DNA from: an archaeon | Lineage (GTDB): Archaea > Thermoproteota > Nitrososphaeria > Nitrososphaerales > Gagatemarchaeaceae | Direction: 5' to 3' | NCBI GenBank assembly: GCA_016432545.1 | Contig: CP066694.1 | Location: 62,001-126,000 of the forward strand | DNA: 64,000 nucleotides | Shown: piece after piece, positions 17,188 through 31,591 of the stretch | Layout of the letters: each line of letters opens with the position of its first letter | How positions within the stretch are numbered: the stretch's first letter is position 1 | Notes under the pieces: generated by a model | The model's input: the letters and a program-made list of their open reading frames with translations, nothing else | Database searches by the model: none | Told to the model about the DNA's origin: nothing | Made by a program: the position numbers and the translations under genes

Positions 17188-18453
17188 TTACCCGACCAAC
17201 TCGAATGCCGTCGAGATCCCCTGACCGACGCCTATGCACATGGTCGCAAGCCCGTACTTAGTCCCCGTCCTCCTCATCTCATGGAGGAGAGTGGTCGCGA
17301 TCCTGGCGCCGCTGCAGCCCAGAGGGTGCCCCAGAGCTATGGCACCCCCGTTGGGATTCATCTTCTCCTCCTCGAACGCGGGCATCTCAGCCATGCAGGC
17401 CAAGACTTGCGCAGCGAAGGCTTCGTTAAGTTCTATGATTCCGAACTCCTCCAACGACATGGACAGCCTGGAGAGGAGCTTTCTGGTGGAGTAGACGGGC
17501 CCGATCCCCATGTAGGATGGGTGGACCCCCGCGGTTGCCGAACCGAGGACCCTTGCAATGGGTCTGAGCCCTTTCTCTTTGGCGTAGCCTTCCTCTGACA
17601 AGACCAAGGCCGCGGCCCCGTCGTTGATTCCTGACGAATTTCCTGGAGTTACGGTGCCGTTGCGTCTGAATACCGGTTTCAGAGCCGCAAGCTTCTCTAT
17701 AGAAGTGTCCTTCCGGGGCCCCTCGTCTGCCTCGATTCCCTCGGGATGCTCCAGGGTCTTCACCTGAGTCATTTCCTGTTTGAACTTCTGTGCAGACGTC
17801 GCCTCAACCGCCTTCCTATGACTCCTGAAGGCGAACTCGTCCTGCGCGGAGCGGGGGACTCCATACTTCTCCGCGAGGTTCTCAGCCGTCTCTCCCATTG
17901 AAATCGGAGGATACTCTTCCGGAAAGGCCGAGTTCACGAACCTCCAGCCTATCGTTGAGTCGACAAGTGAGACTCCTCCCCTCCCGTAGCCGACCTCCGG
18001 CTTCAAGGCGACTAGGGGCGCTCTGGTCATGCTCTCGACACCGCCCGTGAGAACCAGCCTGCCTTCCCCGGACCAAATCACCCTGGCGCCTGAGTTCAGA
18101 GCCTCAAGCCCTGACCCGCAGAGCCTGTTGACAGTCGCGGCAGGCACATCGTAGGGAATTCCGGCCAGTAGGGTGGCCATCCTTGCGACGTTCCTGTTAT
18201 CCTCGCCTCCCTGGTTCGAGCATCCAAAGTACGCGTCGTCCAAAGACGCCGGGTCGATCTTTGTCCTTCCCACCACATCTTTAATCGCGAGAGCGCCGAG
18301 GTCGTCCGGCCGGACAGATTTCAGGATACCTCCGTACTTCCCGATCGGTGTCCTCACTGCGCCAAGGACGACTACTTGCCGGTCCACGATTTTCCGCGGG
18401 CTTGCCGTCTTAATGTTCTTTCCCTCTCCAGTACCATCACAACAAGTGGTCAC
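17188..18453 (-). CDS. Acetyl-CoA C-acyltransferase (thiolase)
   Basis: Thiolase family, about 400 core residues. VVVLGAVRTPIGKYGGILKS begins the fold. NRLCGSGLEALNSGA contains the acylated Cys, GVESMTRAP follows, and NPNGGAIALGHPLGCSGAR plus TMCIGVGQGISTAFE give the catalytic His and second Cys. It cleaves 3-ketoacyl-CoA or condenses two acetyl-CoA. The listed start is GTG 18453, but TATAATAC-like DNA at 18468-18475 is only ~18 bp away, so a start nearer GTG 18387 (just before DRQVVVLGAVRTP) fits a leaderless transcript better; the extra N-terminal ~22 residues look non-conserved. It works with the hydratases and dehydrogenase downstream at 20.6-24 kb. Confidence 0.9.
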   Translation of the reverse strand: MTTCCDGTGEGKNIKTASPRKIVDRQVVVLGAVRTPIGKYGGILKSVRPDDLGALAIKDVVGRTKIDPASLDDAYFGCSNQGGEDNRNVARMATLLAGIPYDVPAATVNRLCGSGLEALNSGARVIWSGEGRLVLTGGVESMTRAPLVALKPEVGYGRGGVSLVDSTIGWRFVNSAFPEEYPPISMGETAENLAEKYGVPRSAQDEFAFRSHRKAVEATSAQKFKQEMTQVKTLEHPEGIEADEGPRKDTSIEKLAALKPVFRRNGTVTPGNSSGINDGAAALVLSEEGYAKEKGLRPIARVLGSATAGVHPSYMGIGPVYSTRKLLSRLSMSLEEFGIIELNEAFAAQVLACMAEMPAFEEEKMNPNGGAIALGHPLGCSGARIATTLLHEMRRTGTKYGLATMCIGVGQGISTAFELVG

Positions 18454-18529
18454 CTAAAGTGAGCCAAGTATAATACCGCCACTTCATCGACCAAACGAAG
18501 TTGGCGAACACAGTCCAAGGCGCTACGCA

Positions 18530-19834
18530 TTGACTCAGGCTAGCCAGGCTGACCCGGCCACTGTCAGGGCTCCTTCTCTCTTCCACCACTATGATTTCAT
18601 GAAACTGTGGATTGGGGAGTCCATCTCCGTCTTCGGGAGCCAGTTCTCGCCAATTGCAATTCTATTCGTCGCTACCAACACCCTGAACTTCCAGCCCATT
18701 CAGTTCGGAATCCTCGCCGCCCTCGGGACGCTTGCCTTTCTAGTGTTCGGGCTTCCGGTTGGGGTCTGGGCGGACAGGAAGAGGAGGAAGAGGACCATGA
18801 TCGGCGCCGACGTGGGACGGGCCGTGATTCTCCTGGCGATCCCACTCGCCGCGATTTTCGGAGGCCTCTCTGCGGAGCTCCTCTACGCTGTCGCGTTGAC
18901 GACAGGCATCCTCACGGTCTTCTTTGAGATATGCTACCAGTCCTATTTGCCGACTCTGGTAGAGCGCCGTCAGCTCGTCGAGGCTAACAGCAAGCTTCAG
19001 GCAAGCGCTGCCTCCGCCCAGACCACTGGCCCAACCCTCGCGACGGTGGTGATTTCGCTGATTTCCGCCCCAGCCGCCATCGTCGGGGACGTGATCGGCT
19101 ACTTCAGCTCCGCCGCTTTCCTCACTTCAATCAGGAGGCCCGAGGTGGTGGTTCCGATGAGAGAGGGGCGCTCCGCCTTGATGGACATCAAGGAGGGCCT
19201 CGCCGTAGTCTTCGGGGACGCCAGGCTAAGGTCGATCGCAGGAAGCACCGCCACCGCAAACCTGTTCTCTAGCGCTTGGGGGGCAATCCTCTTCCCGTAT
19301 CTCATTCGGGAACTGGGCCTTCCTCTAGTCGAGCTGGGGGTCATCTTCTCGATAGGAGCGGCCGGAGGGATTCTAGGGGCAATCGTCGCTTCCAGAATCG
19401 CCAAGAACATTGGCGTGGGAACCACCGTCATCCTCTCGGCCTTCGTGTTCAGCCTCCTCCAGACTCCCCTCTACTTCGTGTCGTCCTCTAACGCCTTCTT
19501 CTTGCTCGTACCGGCCTTCTTCGGCGCCAGCCTAGGCAGCGTCGTCTACAACGTGGGCCAGGTCAGCTTCCGGCAGGCTCTGGTCTCAGTCGAGCTTCAA
19601 GGGAGGATGAACGCGACCATGAGGACCCTCGTCTGGGGCACCCTCCCTATCGGCGGACTCCTAGGTGGGCTACTCGGTCAGCTCTATGGCTATCACACTG
19701 CTATCGGGATAGCTGTCGCCGGAGGGATGCTGGCCTTCCTCTGGGTCCTCTTCTCCCCGGTGAGGGGAATCAAAGATATCCCCAATGCCCCGCTCATCTC
19801 GTCCAATCCCGAAGGGACCTTGAAGTCTGTCTAG
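18530..19834 (+). CDS. MFS transporter (MdtH/enterobactin-exporter-like)
   Basis: 434 residues with about 12 hydrophobic helices. The start of the fold (LFHHYDFMKLWIGESISVFG) and the loop GVWADRKRRKRTMIGADVGRA between helices 2 and 3 match the MFS_3 subgroup, which contains exporters of drugs and siderophores. The TTG start at 18530 is used; an in-frame ATG at 18599 lies inside the first conserved segment, so it is too late. It is divergent from the thiolase, and a shared ~75-bp region contains the thiolase TATA box. The transported compound is unknown. Confidence 0.8.
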   Translation: MTQASQADPATVRAPSLFHHYDFMKLWIGESISVFGSQFSPIAILFVATNTLNFQPIQFGILAALGTLAFLVFGLPVGVWADRKRRKRTMIGADVGRAVILLAIPLAAIFGGLSAELLYAVALTTGILTVFFEICYQSYLPTLVERRQLVEANSKLQASAASAQTTGPTLATVVISLISAPAAIVGDVIGYFSSAAFLTSIRRPEVVVPMREGRSALMDIKEGLAVVFGDARLRSIAGSTATANLFSSAWGAILFPYLIRELGLPLVELGVIFSIGAAGGILGAIVASRIAKNIGVGTTVILSAFVFSLLQTPLYFVSSSNAFFLLVPAFFGASLGSVVYNVGQVSFRQALVSVELQGRMNATMRTLVWGTLPIGGLLGGLLGQLYGYHTAIGIAVAGGMLAFLWVLFSPVRGIKDIPNAPLISSNPEGTLKSV

Positions 19835-26270: not shown

Positions 26271-26365
26271 GCCGGGGTGGCAGAGTGGTTAATGCGCGGG
26301 CCTTGAGAATGCACGGGAAAGCCCGTGACCTTCGGGTCGCGTGGGTTCGAATCCTACCCCCGGCG
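26271..26365 (+). tRNA. tRNA-Ser (anticodon TGA), class II, with a 12-nt intron
   Basis: Acceptor GCCGGGG (26271-26277) pairs with CCCCGGC (26358-26364), discriminator G. D stem is GCA/TGC, anticodon stem CGGGC (26297-26301)/GCCCG (26321-26325), long variable arm GACC-TTCG-GGTC (26327-26338), T arm GTGGG-TTCGAAT-CCTAC. The class II arm and 7-nt loop CTTGAGA after splicing give anticodon TGA (26304-26306). The intron (26308-26319) sits at the canonical 37/38 position. CCA is not encoded. Confidence 0.93.
26308..26319 (+). other. tRNA intron, canonical 37/38 site, BHB motif
   Basis: Twelve nucleotides follow the base 3' of the anticodon. A strict BHB fold is possible: outer helix is the anticodon stem, bulge 1 AG^A (26306-26308), 4-bp centre CUUG/CGGG (26302-26305 with 26314-26317, two G-U pairs), bulge 2 AA^A (26318-26320). 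Cutting after the second nucleotide of each bulge removes exactly these 12 nt. Confidence 0.85.
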
Positions 26366-26380
26366 CCTCTTCTTGCCACT

Positions 26381-27220
26381 TCATCGGGCTGGCTGGTCGA
26401 TCCTGAATATCTCGACCTCGCCTGCCACGTTCTTGAGCTCGGTCAAGCCTAGCTCCGTGACGTGGCTCTCCAGCTTGTTCCAGACTTGGTCGAAGACCTG
26501 GCGAGAGATGCAGATGCCTCCCGGCTCGGCCGCCGTGTGTATCCTGGACGCTATGTTGACCGCATCGCCGACTATGTCCCTCCCGTCCCTCTCCACGTCC
26601 CCCACATGAATCCCAATCCTCAGCATCACCTGCCCGCTCTTCCCTGCCTTCGAATTCCTGCTCCTCACCGCCTTCTGGATCTCGACCGCGCACAGACTGG
26701 CCTCCAGGGCGCTCGCGAACTCGACCATGAACGCGTCCCCCATTGTCTTGACCTCCCTCCCGTGGAACCTCGGAAGGAGGGACCTGACGATCGTCTGTTG
26801 TTCTCCCCTCAGCTTCAGGGCGTTCTTCTCGTCTTTCTGGGCCAGAGAAGTGTAGCCGACCACGTCGGTGAACATTATCGCAGCGAGCCCTCTTGTCGGA
26901 GCTTCCTTGAAAGTCTCCAAGAACCCGTTCATCTTCCAGTACGTCTCGAGGAAGTCGAGGCCTCTCTGTGAGGCCGCATATCTTGTCTCTCCATCTTCCT
27001 GCGAGACCCTGGCAAGTCCAAAGTCGCAGAGCTCCTGGATCATGAGCCTGAGCCTGTCGATGGGGACCCCGACCGCGTATGAGATCCTGGTGATCCTTCC
27101 CCCGCCCGGATATCTCCTGACGACCTCCAGTATCTCCGCGTAGATGTCCAGCTTGGTCCTCTTGGAGGTCTGGCCGGGCTCGTCTCCCCTCTCTCCGCCA
27201 CGGGACGTCCTTGGCCTCAC
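26381..27220 (-). CDS. Class III adenylate cyclase with N-terminal winged-helix domain
   Basis: 279 residues from GTG 27220. Residues ~20-95 look like a winged helix (LDIYAEILEVVRRYPGG, then ISYAVGVPIDRLRLMIQEL), as in archaeal HTH regulators. Residues ~113-275 are a class III nucleotide cyclase domain: MFTDVVGYTSLA (metal Asp ~119), GREVKTMGDAFMVEF (Lys ~158 and metal Asp ~162), RDIVGDAVNIASRI (adenine-selecting Asp ~215, Asn ~222, Arg ~226). All catalytic residues are present and the Lys/Asp pair favours ATP. It begins 5 bp after the bactofilin-like gene, so they are one operon. A frame open to 27334 and another to 27440 are shadows. Confidence 0.85.
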   Translation of the reverse strand: MRPRTSRGGERGDEPGQTSKRTKLDIYAEILEVVRRYPGGGRITRISYAVGVPIDRLRLMIQELCDFGLARVSQEDGETRYAASQRGLDFLETYWKMNGFLETFKEAPTRGLAAIMFTDVVGYTSLAQKDEKNALKLRGEQQTIVRSLLPRFHGREVKTMGDAFMVEFASALEASLCAVEIQKAVRSRNSKAGKSGQVMLRIGIHVGDVERDGRDIVGDAVNIASRIHTAAEPGGICISRQVFDQVWNKLESHVTELGLTELKNVAGEVEIFRIDQPAR

Positions 27221-27225
27221 CAGCC

Positions 27226-28395
27226 TCAGATTGGGGGCTCGGGCAGGGCGTCCACCTTCTTCGGGGGCACGTCCAGGCGGACCGCCCTGCCGAGGCTGAG
27301 CTCCTTCGTGTAGTTGACCTCCTTTGCAGTGCACCCGTCCTCGATCTCCACACTCTCCGCGAAGACCCTTCCCATCCTTGACACCTTCTTCGCCCTGAAG
27401 TCCTTCGCGTAGACGTCTTCCACCGTGCAGCCCTTCTCAAGCTCCACCTCGTCAGCGACCAGGGCCCCCTTTGCCCTCGACCCCTTCCCCATGGAAATCG
27501 CGCGGGCCCTCAGACCCAATGCGGTCTCGACCTCCCTGCCCACTGCTACTTCACCTGATAGTACCGCTTTCTTCGCCTTGAACGAGCCTCCGACGCTCAG
27601 GCTGTGCCCCACCATGTCTTCCCGCACCTCGACCTTCCCTCCCACGCTGAGGTCCTCCGTAAGGGTCAGCTTCCCCTCGACCTCGAGCCTCCCTCCCACC
27701 TGGATGCTTCCGCCTTCGTAGTCCCCTACTATCCTTACCTCCCCTCCTGCTTTGATCTCCTCGCATTTCATCGAGCCGTTGGCCGTTAGTCTCCCGCCGA
27801 CCTTGATCGACTCCCCGACGCAGTCGCCCTGCACCTCGATCAGTCCTCCGACCTTGCACTCTTCGAAGACGACCTTTGAGATCATCAGCAGGGTTCCGCC
27901 TACTTTGATCTCTCCAGTGACCCTTCCCGAGCCGATCTCCGCCTTGCCTCCAACGTCCAGGTCACCCAGGGATACGATCCCGGGCGCAGAGACCATCCCT
28001 CCGACCCTGACGCTCGCCGAGTCGAACGCCCCGGCCACATCCAGGGAGCCTCCCACGCTCACCTCGGGTGAAGTCAAAGAGCCTCCCACCGAAGCGCGCC
28101 CACCGACCTCGACCTCTGAGGCTGTGAGGTCCCCCTTCACGTAGAGCGCGTCGTCGACCTCTATCGACCCGTGGGCCCTCAGCGACCCGTTGGCCCTGAC
28201 CATCCCGTCCTCAGACTCCATCGCCAGGCACTCTAGGTCGCACTCAATCTCCGCGTCGCCCTCCAGCTTGACAGTCCCGCTCACTTTCACCCCTGCGCCC
28301 GCCCTGCCTCTTATCACCGCCCCATCCTCGACCTCGAGGTCGCCGTCGACGTCCCCTAGGCTCTCCTCGCGTCCCCTCTCCACCCTGGTCGTCAT
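27226..28395 (-). CDS. Bactofilin-like polymer-forming beta-solenoid protein
   Basis: 389 residues almost entirely built from short glycine-rich repeats, with VGG recurring about every 17 residues (IKVGGRL, IKAGGEV, IQVGGRL, LSVGGKV, LSVGGSF). This is the pattern of a right-handed beta-solenoid as in bactofilins and polymer-forming cytoskeletal proteins. There is no signal peptide or membrane helix, so it is probably cytoplasmic and may assemble into filaments or scaffold partners. It is more than twice the length of a typical bacterial bactofilin. TATA box at 28421-28428. The downstream cyclase gene is only 5 bp away. Confidence 0.72.
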   Translation of the reverse strand: MTTRVERGREESLGDVDGDLEVEDGAVIRGRAGAGVKVSGTVKLEGDAEIECDLECLAMESEDGMVRANGSLRAHGSIEVDDALYVKGDLTASEVEVGGRASVGGSLTSPEVSVGGSLDVAGAFDSASVRVGGMVSAPGIVSLGDLDVGGKAEIGSGRVTGEIKVGGTLLMISKVVFEECKVGGLIEVQGDCVGESIKVGGRLTANGSMKCEEIKAGGEVRIVGDYEGGSIQVGGRLEVEGKLTLTEDLSVGGKVEVREDMVGHSLSVGGSFKAKKAVLSGEVAVGREVETALGLRARAISMGKGSRAKGALVADEVELEKGCTVEDVYAKDFRAKKVSRMGRVFAESVEIEDGCTAKEVNYTKELSLGRAVRLDVPPKKVDALPEPPI

Positions 28396-28420: not shown

Positions 28421-28428
28421 CTTTATAG
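28421..28428 (-). promoter_or_regulatory. TATA box of the bactofilin-cyclase operon
   Basis: CTATAAAG on the minus strand, centred 29 bp upstream of ATG 28395. Confidence 0.65.
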
Positions 28429-28439
28429 TTGGCTCACGG

Positions 28440-28466
28440 CAAGTAATCACTTATTGTGACTGCTTG
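28440..28466. repeat. Imperfect inverted repeat between ABC permease and bactofilin genes
   Basis: CAAGTAATCAC and GTGACTGCTTG (9 of 11 complementary) are separated by TTATT. It lies 12 bp after the permease stop and about 12 bp upstream of the bactofilin TATA box, so it could end the ABC operon transcript or be an operator for the bactofilin operon. Confidence 0.4.
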
Positions 28467-28478
28467 GCCGGCTCGCCC

Positions 28479-29330
28479 TTAGGGCTGTCTTCGGGCGCCC
28501 TCGGCGGGAGTGCGGAGGTTCACGAAGAGCCACTTGCCCGCCCCGACCGCTAGGAAGACCCCGAGGGCTGCCACCACGATCATCGCTCCCGAGGCCACGT
28601 CGAGCACTATTGAGCCGAAGAGCCCGAAGACGACGCTCGCGACCCCCACAGCCACCGAGAGATAGACGGTCTGTCTGAAGGACCTGCTGACCTGGAGGCT
28701 CGTCAGGCCGGGCAGCACGATGAGGGCCGCGATCAGCAGGACGCCGACGACGGGCACTGAGACTATGACGCTTATCCCCGCGAGGGCGCTGAAGAGGTAG
28801 TCGTAGACCCAGGTCCTCACGCCCGAGGCCCTCGCCTGGGTCTCGTCAAACGTCACGTAGACAAGCTCCTTGAAGATCAGAGACAAGACCGCGAGCGTAA
28901 CAGCGAGGACCCCCAGAGCCACGTAGATCTGCGTGTTGGTGACCAGAAGTATGCTCCCGAAGAGGAGGCTCTCGAGGTTGAACCCGTACGCGTGAGAAAG
29001 GCTGATGAGCACAGTGCCGAAGCCGAGGCCCATCACTAGGAAGAGCGCAACCGCCGCATCGGGAGGTATCCTCCGCGTTCGCTGGGACTTCGTTATGCCC
29101 AGCGAGGCGAGGACCGCGACAACGGCCCCGCCCCAAACCGGAGGAACGCCCAGGTAGAGACCCAGGGCCAATCCCCCGTAGGACGAGTGGGCGAGGCCGT
29201 CCCCCAACAGCGAAACGCGCTTGAGGACCACGAAGACGCTGAGGACCGAAGTCAGGACCGCTATGATGACTGCGATAACGAACGCCCGTTGGATGAATGC
29301 CTGCCCCAGGAGCTGAAGGAGGTCAGGCAT
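28479..29330 (-). CDS. Metal ABC transporter permease (ZnuB/MntB family)
   Basis: 283 residues with about eight hydrophobic helices. RAFVIAVIIAVLTSVLSVFVVLKRVSLLGDGLAHSSYGG is the family signature (positions ~15-55; conserved G-D-x-L-A/S-H). Late segments VPVVGVLLIAALIVLPGLTS complete the ABC-3 fold. It forms the channel for Zn2+, Mn2+ or a related ion, partnered by the ATPase whose 3' end overlaps its start (29323-29330). Divergent NikR upstream makes nickel or cobalt a further possibility. Confidence 0.88.
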   Translation of the reverse strand: MPDLLQLLGQAFIQRAFVIAVIIAVLTSVLSVFVVLKRVSLLGDGLAHSSYGGLALGLYLGVPPVWGGAVVAVLASLGITKSQRTRRIPPDAAVALFLVMGLGFGTVLISLSHAYGFNLESLLFGSILLVTNTQIYVALGVLAVTLAVLSLIFKELVYVTFDETQARASGVRTWVYDYLFSALAGISVIVSVPVVGVLLIAALIVLPGLTSLQVSRSFRQTVYLSVAVGVASVVFGLFGSIVLDVASGAMIVVAALGVFLAVGAGKWLFVNLRTPAEGARRQP

Positions 29331-30096
29331 GCTCGTCGTGCCTCACCACTTCGACCGGGTACCCATAGACTTCCGAGAGCGCGGAGCTCTTCACGAACTC
29401 CGAAGTCGTGCCGTGGAAGAACACGGTGCCGTTCAGGCACGCGACCCTGTTGGAGTACCGTGTGACAACCCCGATGTCGTGCGAAGCAAGGACTACGGTG
29501 ATCCCATGGTCCTTGTTCAGGTGCCCGAGAGTCTCGTAGAACTCCGCCGAGGACCGAGAGTCGACCCCGCTCGTCGGCTCGTCCAGAATCATGAGGTCGG
29601 GGTCGCCCACCAGGGCCTTTGCGAGGAAGACGCGTTGCGACTGCCCGCCGGAGAGCTCGCCGATCCTCCTGTCCCTCAGTTCCTGGATGCCCAAGTGCTC
29701 CAGGGTCCTCTCTACAGCTTCCCTGTCCTCTCTCCCAAACCTCCTGAACGGGGAAGTCCTGGCGACCCGCCCCATCAGGACGGTCTCAAAGACTGTGGAC
29801 GGGAAGTTTACGTCTGATGCTATTGCCTTCTGGGGCACGTAGCCGACCCTCCTGAGGGCCTCCGGAGACAGCGGCTTCCCGAAGACCTCCACCGACCCGG
29901 TCGTGGGCCTCACCAGCCCGAGCATGGCGCCGATCATAGTCGTCTTGCCCGACCCGTTCGGCCCCACCAGGCCCAAGAAGTCCTTCCGGTTGACCTCTAG
30001 TGAAACTCCCTGAAGGGCCGCGAATCCGTTAGCAAAGACAACGCCGACGTCGCTGAGGCTGACTATGACCTCCTGTTGCGGAGTCTCTTCTTGCAT
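29323..30096 (-). CDS. Metal ABC transporter ATP-binding protein (ZnuC/MntA-like)
   Basis: 257 residues from ATG 30096. Walker A is GLVGPNGSGKTT, the Q-loop is VGYVPQKA, the signature LSGGQSQRVFLAKAL, Walker B LMILDEPTSGVD, and the switch His is in LASHDIGVV. The pattern FPSTVFETVLMGR is typical of zinc/manganese importers. A frame open to 30294 runs into the substrate-binding gene out of frame; the ATG overlaps that gene's TGA (TGATG), which fixes the start. It energises uptake with the adjacent permease. Confidence 0.9.
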   Translation of the reverse strand: MQEETPQQEVIVSLSDVGVVFANGFAALQGVSLEVNRKDFLGLVGPNGSGKTTMIGAMLGLVRPTTGSVEVFGKPLSPEALRRVGYVPQKAIASDVNFPSTVFETVLMGRVARTSPFRRFGREDREAVERTLEHLGIQELRDRRIGELSGGQSQRVFLAKALVGDPDLMILDEPTSGVDSRSSAEFYETLGHLNKDHGITVVLASHDIGVVTRYSNRVACLNGTVFFHGTTSEFVKSSALSEVYGYPVEVVRHDEHA

Positions 30097-31049
30097 CAGC
30101 AGTCCGCCTGGTTCAGCGCCTGGAGCAGTGAGTAAATGTCCAGCTGGAACTTTGCCAGATAGGTGGCGCCAGCGTTCGAATCGGACCCGGAGAGGCCCTC
30201 GATGGGGTCGAGTATCCAGACGTGCGCTCTCGTCTGGCTCGCAACCGCCTCCATCGGCGCCGGGTTCTCCAGGGACTCCGCGAACGCCACGCACAGATGA
30301 TTCTGGTTGATGGCTGCGACCGCGTTGGAGATCTCAGTGGGAGTCGGCTCTCCCTCGAAGGGGCCCGCGATTGCCACCTGGTTGAGGCCGTACTCCCTGG
30401 CAAGATACGCGAAGGCCAGATGGAACGAGACGAATGTCCTGGTCGCGACGTCAGACGTGCCCGTCCTAATCTCCCGGTCCAGGTACTGGAACTTCCCGAT
30501 CAGGGAGTCCGCGTTGGATGTGAAGTACTGCCGGTCGGCCTGGTCCGCCCTAGTCAGCCCTTCAAGGATGTTCCTCACCTGAATTTGGGCAAGGACTGGG
30601 TCGTTCCATACGTGGGGGTCGACCGTGCGATTGCCCTCCTGGAACTCTGAAGGGACCCTGATGAGCGGGATCCCCTCGCTCGAGTTGACCAGGATTAGCT
30701 TCGGGTTTCCCGCAGCGGCCACAAGTGCTGGGAGCCAAGGCTCGAGTCCTGCTCCGTTGAAGACAAGGACATCGGCATTCTGGACCGCGGAGACTGCGCT
30801 CGGAGTCGGCTCGAACTCGTGTACGTCTACCGCCAACGGCACCAACAGGTCGACCTCCCCCTTCACCCCCAGCACGTCTTTCGCATCGTCATACAGGGGG
30901 AGGAATGTGGCGAGGACCTTCAGGCCTCCCTCACCCCCGTTGCTCTGGGGCGCTCGCCCGACCGATGAACCTGCGGCATACCCCGCAAGCCCCGAACCGA
31001 GAATCAACAGCGCAACGACTGCGACCTGCGCGACGGCCCTGTTATTCAA
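30096..31049 (-). CDS. Metal ABC transporter substrate-binding protein (ZnuA family)
   Basis: 317 residues. The N-terminal hydrophobic segment (VAVVALLILGSGLAGYAAG, residues ~10-28) is a signal or membrane anchor; no lipobox Cys follows. The cluster A-1 fold starts LKVLATFLPLYDDAKDV. Metal ligands seen are VDVHEFEPTPS (His), DPHVWNDP (His), FVSFHLAFAYL (His) and WILDPIEG (Asp), the His3-Asp set of Zn/Mn binders. The His-rich loop of many ZnuA proteins is missing, so high-affinity zinc capture is less certain. Start TTG 31049 lies ~30 bp from ATTTATC (31076-31082). First gene of a three-gene importer operon. Confidence 0.88.
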   Translation of the reverse strand: MNNRAVAQVAVVALLILGSGLAGYAAGSSVGRAPQSNGGEGGLKVLATFLPLYDDAKDVLGVKGEVDLLVPLAVDVHEFEPTPSAVSAVQNADVLVFNGAGLEPWLPALVAAAGNPKLILVNSSEGIPLIRVPSEFQEGNRTVDPHVWNDPVLAQIQVRNILEGLTRADQADRQYFTSNADSLIGKFQYLDREIRTGTSDVATRTFVSFHLAFAYLAREYGLNQVAIAGPFEGEPTPTEISNAVAAINQNHLCVAFAESLENPAPMEAVASQTRAHVWILDPIEGLSGSDSNAGATYLAKFQLDIYSLLQALNQADC

Positions 31050-31072
31050 ATTGACTCTGTTCTTAATTCGAA

Positions 31073-31102
31073 GTTGATAAATGCTGAGGTTGTCTTATTA
31101 AC
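31073..31102. promoter_or_regulatory. Candidate metalloregulator operator over the ABC-importer promoter
   Basis: GTTGATAA-N14-TTATTAAC (7 of 8 arm positions complementary) spans 31073-31102 and covers the TATA element of the minus-strand importer. A related half site, TTATCAA, lies at 31160-31166, near the nikR promoter. Spacing resembles NikR sites (two half sites with a long spacer), though the bases differ from the E. coli operator. Confidence 0.4.
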
Positions 31103-31207
31103 TCCGCCGACCCGGTCGCAGGCGACGAAATCCTACCCACTCAGGCCAAGACCGAGTTATTATCAATCAGTCAGAAGCTTATATCACTCTTAAGACCCAT
31201 GCTGGGC

Positions 31208-31591
31208 GTGCCGATAATAAGCCTCTCGTTCCCCGAAAAGCTCCTCGCAGAGATGGACGGCCTCCAGAAGAGCTCGGCATTCACAGGCAGGTCTGAGCTC
31301 GTCCGCGCCGCCATCAGGATGATGATGGACGACGCACGCGAGAAGTCGACCCTGTCAGGGGAGATTAATGGATTGGTCGTCGTGACCCACGACCAAGAAC
31401 AGGAGGAGCCTGTGACCAAGCTAAAGCACAGGTTCGAGGACATAATCCGGACCCACATCCACAGCAAGACGAGCTCCTCGGTCTGCGTCGAGCTCTTCCT
31501 GGTCCACGGAAGCGCCAAGAAGGTCGTGGACATGACAAAGTCCTTCCAGGCCGAGGACAAGATGAAGAGCGCCAAGTTCATCCCGATATAG
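31208..31591 (+). CDS. nikR: NikR-like nickel-responsive ribbon-helix-helix regulator
   Basis: 127 residues from GTG 31208. PIISLSFPEKLLAEMDGLQ and GRSELVRAAIRMMM form the ribbon-helix-helix DNA-binding domain (residues ~1-45). The ACT-like C-terminal domain carries VVTHDQEQEE, THIHSKTSS and a following VCVELFLVHG: the H, HxH and Cys ligand set of NikR. GTG 31208 is preferred to ATG 31199 because CTTATATC (31178-31185) is then ~27 bp upstream and the protein begins like other NikR (M-P-I-I-S). Divergence from a metal importer suggests it controls that importer. Confidence 0.88.
   Translation: MPIISLSFPEKLLAEMDGLQKSSAFTGRSELVRAAIRMMMDDAREKSTLSGEINGLVVVTHDQEQEEPVTKLKHRFEDIIRTHIHSKTSSSVCVELFLVHGSAKKVVDMTKSFQAEDKMKSAKFIPI

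Follow-up and report, generated by a model that had tools for sequence, protein, structure and literature searches.

A widespread archaeal pairing of a bactofilin-like solenoid with a winged-helix protein, and its fusion to a predicted adenylate cyclase in one Nitrososphaerales lineage

In bactofilins, a beta-helical core of about 100 residues lies between N- and C-terminal regions that are variable and disordered (PMC12364344). Archaea have such proteins too: the halofilins of Haloferax are bactofilin homologs that act in cell shape (cited in PMC12186497). In Myxococcus, bactofilins organise the ParABS system (PMC5703909), and a beta-helix is predicted for the larger SegB proteins of Metallosphaera (PMC12284271). 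As for the cyclases, a paper published in 2021 states that very few of those predicted in archaea are of class III, that the cAMP of most archaea probably comes from a cyclase class not yet recognised, and that its enzyme source is unknown for the model species (PMC8646023). Here we describe an archaeal operon in which the gene of a bactofilin-like solenoid is followed by that of a class III cyclase fused to a winged helix, trace its relatives, and compare it with these systems.

The operon lies in a 64-kb stretch of DNA (hereafter the window) within a genome that forms a single contig of 1,504,237 bp. Its nearest named relatives are Nitrososphaerales/Thaumarchaeota MAGs, and the original prediction, made from the letters of the window, was thus right in calling the operon archaeal. 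The features are listed in Table 1. Reading across the junction of the two genes (...ATC TGA GGCTG GTG AGG...) gives exactly 5 bp between the solenoid stop and the GTG start of the cyclase, as first claimed, and the operon transcript is predicted to be near-leaderless. A sigma-70 promoter scan found no promoter, this model being of no use for archaea. A tRNA-Leu (GAG) gene of 97 nt lies on the opposite strand at 26271-26367, 13 bases away from where the cyclase gene ends. On the 5' side of the operon the window holds genes of a ZnuABC-type zinc transporter and a divergent NikR-like regulator (28479-31591). A functional link to the zinc transporter was rejected: in the sister locus G026 (genomes, loci and families carry our own labels) the NikR-like gene is retained and ZnuABC is swapped for another membrane-protein gene, and ZnuABC is missing from all other loci.

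Table 1. Positions in the window of the operon, its promoter elements and the second operator-like site.
Feature	Position	Strand	Remarks
Bactofilin-like beta-solenoid protein	27226..28395	-	389 aa, ATG start, 17-residue VGG repeats, C-terminal tail P-x-K-V-x-x-L-P-x-P-P-[LIV]
Winged helix / linker helix / predicted class III adenylate cyclase fusion	26381..27220	-	279 aa, GTG start
Operator-like inverted repeat TCACAATAAGTGATTACTTGCCGTGAG	28433..28459	-	0 mismatches to family pattern, directly 5' of TATA box
Operon TATA box (TATAAA)	28422..28427	-	~32 nt 5' of ATG
Second operator-like site TCACAACAAGTGGTCACCTAAAGTGAG, then CCAAGTATAATA	18437..18463	+	only other such place found in genome
MFS exporter gene 3' of second operator-like site	18530..19834	+	

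The solenoid protein had been described as 389 residues of VGG repeats about 17 residues long, and both the reading frame and the autocorrelation agree with this: the motifs are mostly spaced by 17 residues, and the autocorrelation at 17 and 34 exceeds that of all 500 shuffles. The sequence matches the Pfam family Bactofilin (PF04519), at 40.0 bits against a cut-off of 27.9, and the profile of the solenoid family weakly matches the solved bactofilins TtBac (6ria, E 0.0012) and Caulobacter BacA (2n3d, E 0.042). The AlphaFold2 model, with a mean pLDDT of 96.3 over the 389 residues and no residue below 70, is one continuous beta-solenoid without disordered tails. The solenoids of relatives have equal length and anatomy and end in the same conserved C-terminal tail, size and tail being the same with or without a cyclase partner, and the bactofilin plan of a ~100-residue core between disordered regions was found neither in the model nor in these relatives. 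Among the matches listed by a Foldseek search with the model there was no bactofilin, and no solved relative reached significance (best E 0.12). Because the Pfam and profile matches exist while the bactofilin anatomy and a significant structural match are missing, we call the protein bactofilin-like; it would be a rod-shaped scaffold, which may polymerise. Two genomes, G365 and G400 (loci L124, L125, L128 and L130), possess two solenoid genes each, and every one of these genes is paired with a separate winged helix from the subfamily described below.

The second protein contains, in its predicted model, a winged helix at residues 23-83 (Pfam ~20-98), a linker helix at 85-104 and a cyclase domain at 109-275. 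The N-terminal winged helix of the original prediction is a member of Pfam HTH_45 (PF14947; 37.3 bits, cut-off 25.5), as are the stand-alone winged-helix partners described below, which score 44-53 bits. The cyclase domain matches Guanylate_cyc (PF00211) at 65.2 bits (cut-off 21.9). Its closest solved relatives are Rv1900c, 3mr7 and Ma1120, and the structural match to Rv1900c (1ybu) has an E-value of 5.9e-16, a TM (target) of 0.88 and 37% identity. Every catalytic residue is indeed in place: D119 and D162 for the metal, K158 and D215 for adenine selection, and N222 and R226 for the transition state, and all six are invariant in the 7 fused cyclases and in all 45 aligned cyclase domains. With this intact ATP-type active site the fusion is predicted to have adenylate cyclase activity. 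The fused cyclase is under strong purifying selection (dN/dS 0.08-0.15 where computable), which together with the intact residues excludes a degenerate cyclase or pseudogene. An apparent stop in the G026 copy coincides with a run of N in the assembly and was dismissed. Class III cyclases are active only as dimers, the active site forming at the dimer interface, and a coupling of cyclase activity to dimerisation of the winged helix is therefore plausible.

The original prediction proposed a survey of archaeal genomes as its check, non-conservation in relatives counting against it, and the pair turned out to be conserved. The solenoid with the winged-helix-cyclase fusion occurs in seven genomes, a small sample in which six are MAG assemblies: the window genome (G000), G026, G020, G011, G002, FK5.bin12 and YP4.bin50. 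Other neighbours vary among the G000/G026, G020, G011, G002 and FK5/YP4 loci, G000/G026 and FK5/YP4 being close pairs; the pair persists while the surrounding genes change, and we therefore rejected chance neighbourhood. In eight further loci among relatives the solenoid gene is followed by a winged helix alone, with no cyclase, and the two genes overlap as ATGA in G015, G028, G029 and G008. A class-wide scan of 400 Nitrososphaeria genomes added ten loci; each of them has the winged helix, and in no case is a cyclase fused to it. The same winged-helix subfamily is thus present at all 25 Nitrososphaeria solenoid loci with downstream sequence (7 with a cyclase and 18 without), a count that takes in three near-identical copies (G007, G008 and G030). 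At the level of the phylum the solenoid was found in 72 of 398 genomes. In the 29 loci examined from other classes, the winged helix is located within 1.5 kb of the solenoid in 19, one of them weak (L159), and within about 5 kb in 23, where it may be downstream, upstream or divergent (three gene orders). Furthermore, of 13 genomes scored throughout for the winged-helix subfamily, 12 have their highest match next to the solenoid, at 85-149 bits, the next best reaching at most 58. In several loci of other archaeal classes the winged helix carries a fused KaiC-like ATPase domain, and a KaiC-family gene of its own standing lies close by; in L162-L165, from another archaeal class, a second KaiC-family gene stands between this fusion and the solenoid gene. 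From the cyclase-free loci and the KaiC-like fusions it follows that what regularly accompanies the solenoid is the winged helix, whose C-terminal domain can be exchanged, and by this comparison of sequences the ancient unit is solenoid plus winged helix. The pairing occurs in soil and groundwater archaea, and in the source genome the predicted DNA-binding partner is fused to an enzyme predicted to make cAMP.

These counts bear on the earlier reading, in which filaments of the solenoid would dock the cyclase as a spatially localised, filament-linked source of cAMP. It draws on the 5-bp distance between the genes, the retention of the pair in seven genomes, the Pfam bactofilin match and the profile match to 6ria, but most homologous loci are cyclase-free, the solenoid has the same size and tail beside a cyclase and without one, and its model has no disordered bactofilin tails. 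Docking would account neither for the cyclase-free loci nor for the palindrome described below, and we regard it as quite improbable. The cyclase is not the general partner of the solenoid, given the 18 other Nitrososphaeria loci and the majority elsewhere that have none; a filament-linked cyclase is therefore at best a local variation. Where the original prediction spoke of a filament-linked or DNA-binding cAMP module, the DNA-binding part fits the winged helix.

As for the origin of the cyclase, the domains of the fusions group together with 100/99 support, nested among the class III cyclases of the lineage itself, and in this tree the cyclase is a single, later fusion. In the solenoid tree the cyclase-linked members share a 100/100 clade with Nitrososphaera and others; the internal order is weak (86/60) and the cyclase-linked solenoids are not strictly one clade, so that one gain of the cyclase and a possible loss fit. 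Class III cyclases were said in the original prediction to be poorly known in archaea. The published impression is that they are rare there (PMC8646023). In Nitrososphaeria, by contrast, 308 of the 400 genomes contain class III cyclase domains, and a first look gave as many as 23 candidates in a single genome. The source genome has nine in 1.5 Mb, the fusion and eight others (L001-L008). Most of the nine are in proteins of ~650 aa. Seven of the eight lie in open frames of 646-899 aa, five of these being confirmed as a cyclase with C-terminal TPR repeats, an architecture that looks bacterial; the one in a shorter frame (L002) is a fusion of cyclase and ACT domain. Proteins that bind cyclic nucleotides (cNMP) were found in 28 of 29 genomes with such cyclases and in 8 of 32 without (Fisher p 6e-9, kinship ignored). 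Those inspected are small proteins of one domain, in which the phosphate-binding cassette (FGEMSLIDDEPRSADVVA type) is intact. Several of their genes adjoin a cyclase gene, and in G002 one is transcribed divergently from the solenoid operon. In the source genome a single cNMP-binding protein was found (L110:2426-2968); its gene is divergent beside a long cyclase gene (L110:3289-5268), an arrangement also seen in G003 (L111).

The sole strongly conserved DNA 5' of the solenoid gene is a palindrome, TCAC-N5-GTGATYAC-N5-GTGAG, which abuts the TATA box of the operon and touches the BRE/TATA region; the copy at the operon of the window reads TCACAATAAGTGATTACTTGCCGTGAG-CCAACTATAAA. It is present at all seven cyclase-fused promoters and at five aligned winged-helix-only promoters of the genus. 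In a search of five fusion-carrying genomes with up to 3 mismatches it was found at the operon promoter and at one other place, in the source genome, and shuffled versions of the window gave no match. A matrix built from the genus sites detected sites in 16 of 30 held-out loci from other families and classes at p<=0.02, where the combined p of 1.7e-16 is too small because the tested loci are related. The symmetric pattern with up to 2 mismatches has 1-6 matches in 13 of 16 genomes (range 0-6) and its reversed control none. In each of the two Nitrososphaera genomes it matches without mismatch at a single place, 5' of an operon of MFS, solenoid and winged-helix genes. No palindrome was found by matrix or pattern search in f9 and several other loci. 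The winged helix would bind the palindrome as a dimer, and another factor could bind it instead. In the latter case the palindrome would belong to an unrelated regulator, with solenoid and winged helix linked only through a shared protein complex, as three loci of family f47 might suggest, since they have solenoid and palindrome but lack a winged helix in the surrounding 5 kb or so. The winged helix is, however, encoded elsewhere in at least one f47 genome (G641, 90 bits), and the palindrome accompanies the winged helix across different gene orders, which leaves the unrelated regulator with a low probability.

Several of the further sites, which are rare, stand in front of genes for drug-type exporters (MFS, DrrA-like ABC). 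The MFS gene behind the second site of the window is 40% identical to the one directly 3' of the winged-helix-cyclase gene in G002, and MFS genes are linked to the site or the operon in G000, G002 and Nitrososphaera. The gene order behind the site in G328 and G384 is DrrA-like ABC ATPase, ABC-2 permease, solenoid, winged helix, and extra sites occur 5' of ABC ATPases in G029 and G540 and 5' of an MFS gene in G641. For several other two-mismatch sites (G002 C4:38559, G328 C12, one in G540 and four in G641) no exporter target was identified, and they may be due to chance. The conserved operator-like site and the exporter genes point to transcriptional regulation, and by this pattern the winged helix would be a regulator of its own operon and of exporters. 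The same evidence weighs against a reading in which the winged helix has an architectural role like that of Sso10a and anchors the solenoid to the chromosome, the cyclase being an added sensor. There are precedents in the bactofilin-PadC-ParABS system of Myxococcus (PMC5703909) and the beta-solenoid SegB of Metallosphaera (PMC12284271), and the winged helix does match NCBIfam Sso10a_fam, at 26.6 bits, which lies under the curated cut-off of 60 and places it outside that family. A palindrome that is nearly unique and sits at promoters with exporters behind them suits a gene regulator and not a chromosome-wide binder, and we give the architectural role little credence.

We consider the best explanation, with a probability of roughly 0.6, to be a dedicated winged-helix regulator of a solenoid/exporter regulon that in this lineage of Nitrososphaerales also acts as an adenylate cyclase. 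The sequences themselves show the pairing, the single fusion, the intact active site, the purifying selection and the nearly unique operator-like site, as well as the exporter genes behind several extra sites and the co-occurring cNMP-binding proteins; around these we infer site binding, the direction of regulation, cAMP production and the role of the solenoid. The operon would be a stress- or compound-responsive module of ancient archaeal origin. Its first part, a rod-like, bactofilin-related solenoid, may take part in the response to compounds or membrane stress that the exporters meet. Its second part would be a winged-helix homodimer sitting on the palindrome at the TATA box and controlling the operon as well as an exporter gene or two (MFS, DrrA-like ABC). 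A single event in this lineage of Nitrososphaerales added the predicted class III adenylate cyclase to the C-terminal linker helix of the regulator. Cyclase activity could then be set by dimerisation of the winged helix or by its binding to DNA, and cAMP could carry the state of the module to the single-domain cNMP-binding proteins encoded in the same genomes. A bolder version, which we hold to be unlikely, is a transcription factor whose cyclase depends on its state (bound to DNA, or free or bound to the solenoid), such that scaffold, expression and cAMP make one feedback loop and the winged helix is a hub for lineage-specific fusions of signalling domains.

What first appeared as a curious gene pair would then be a phylum-wide module of scaffold, dedicated regulator, operator-like site and exporters, in which scaffolding, gene control and second-messenger signalling are joined in one small operon. 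It gives the archaeal bactofilin-like proteins a concrete regulatory context, and the class III cyclases and cNMP-binding proteins make up a full predicted archaeal cAMP circuit. The exchange of cyclase and KaiC-like domains on one winged helix is a clean case of a signalling-domain swap on a regulator. A literature search, for which most subscription papers were out of reach, found the solenoid/winged-helix pair, the palindrome and the winged-helix-cyclase nowhere described. The cyclase-free version is present in Ca. Nitrososphaera evergladensis (G188) and in a second complete Nitrososphaera genome (G184), which we take to be N. viennensis EN76, and the module is therefore testable in culture.

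Among known systems, the bactofilins share with the solenoid the Pfam match above cut-off, the repetitive beta-solenoid and the weak profile match to 6ria and 2n3d. They differ in having a core of ~100 aa, whereas here the whole protein of 389-430 aa, about four times that, is one solenoid and has a constant winged-helix partner. The bactofilin-PadC-ParABS system of Myxococcus is alike in that a bactofilin is functionally joined to DNA-binding partners, but here the partner is a small winged helix with a promoter palindrome, and no ParA or ParB gene was seen beside the pair. One-component regulators of the MarR/PadR type control exporter genes, and have in common with the present protein the small winged helix, the promoter palindrome, the apparent autoregulation and the MFS or ABC targets. 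In contrast to them, the winged helix here is of the HTH_45 family, is accompanied by a co-regulated scaffold protein, and carries an exchangeable C-terminal cyclase or KaiC-like domain. The mycobacterial cyclase-ATPase-LuxR proteins, finally, are class III cyclases with DNA-binding domains, and share with the fusion the class III catalytic domain, the ATP-type K/D pair and the fused DNA-binding domain; the archaeal fusion differs by its N-terminal HTH_45 domain, the lack of an ATPase and the solenoid gene as partner, and its catalytic domain is nested in the cyclase-TPR family of its own lineage.
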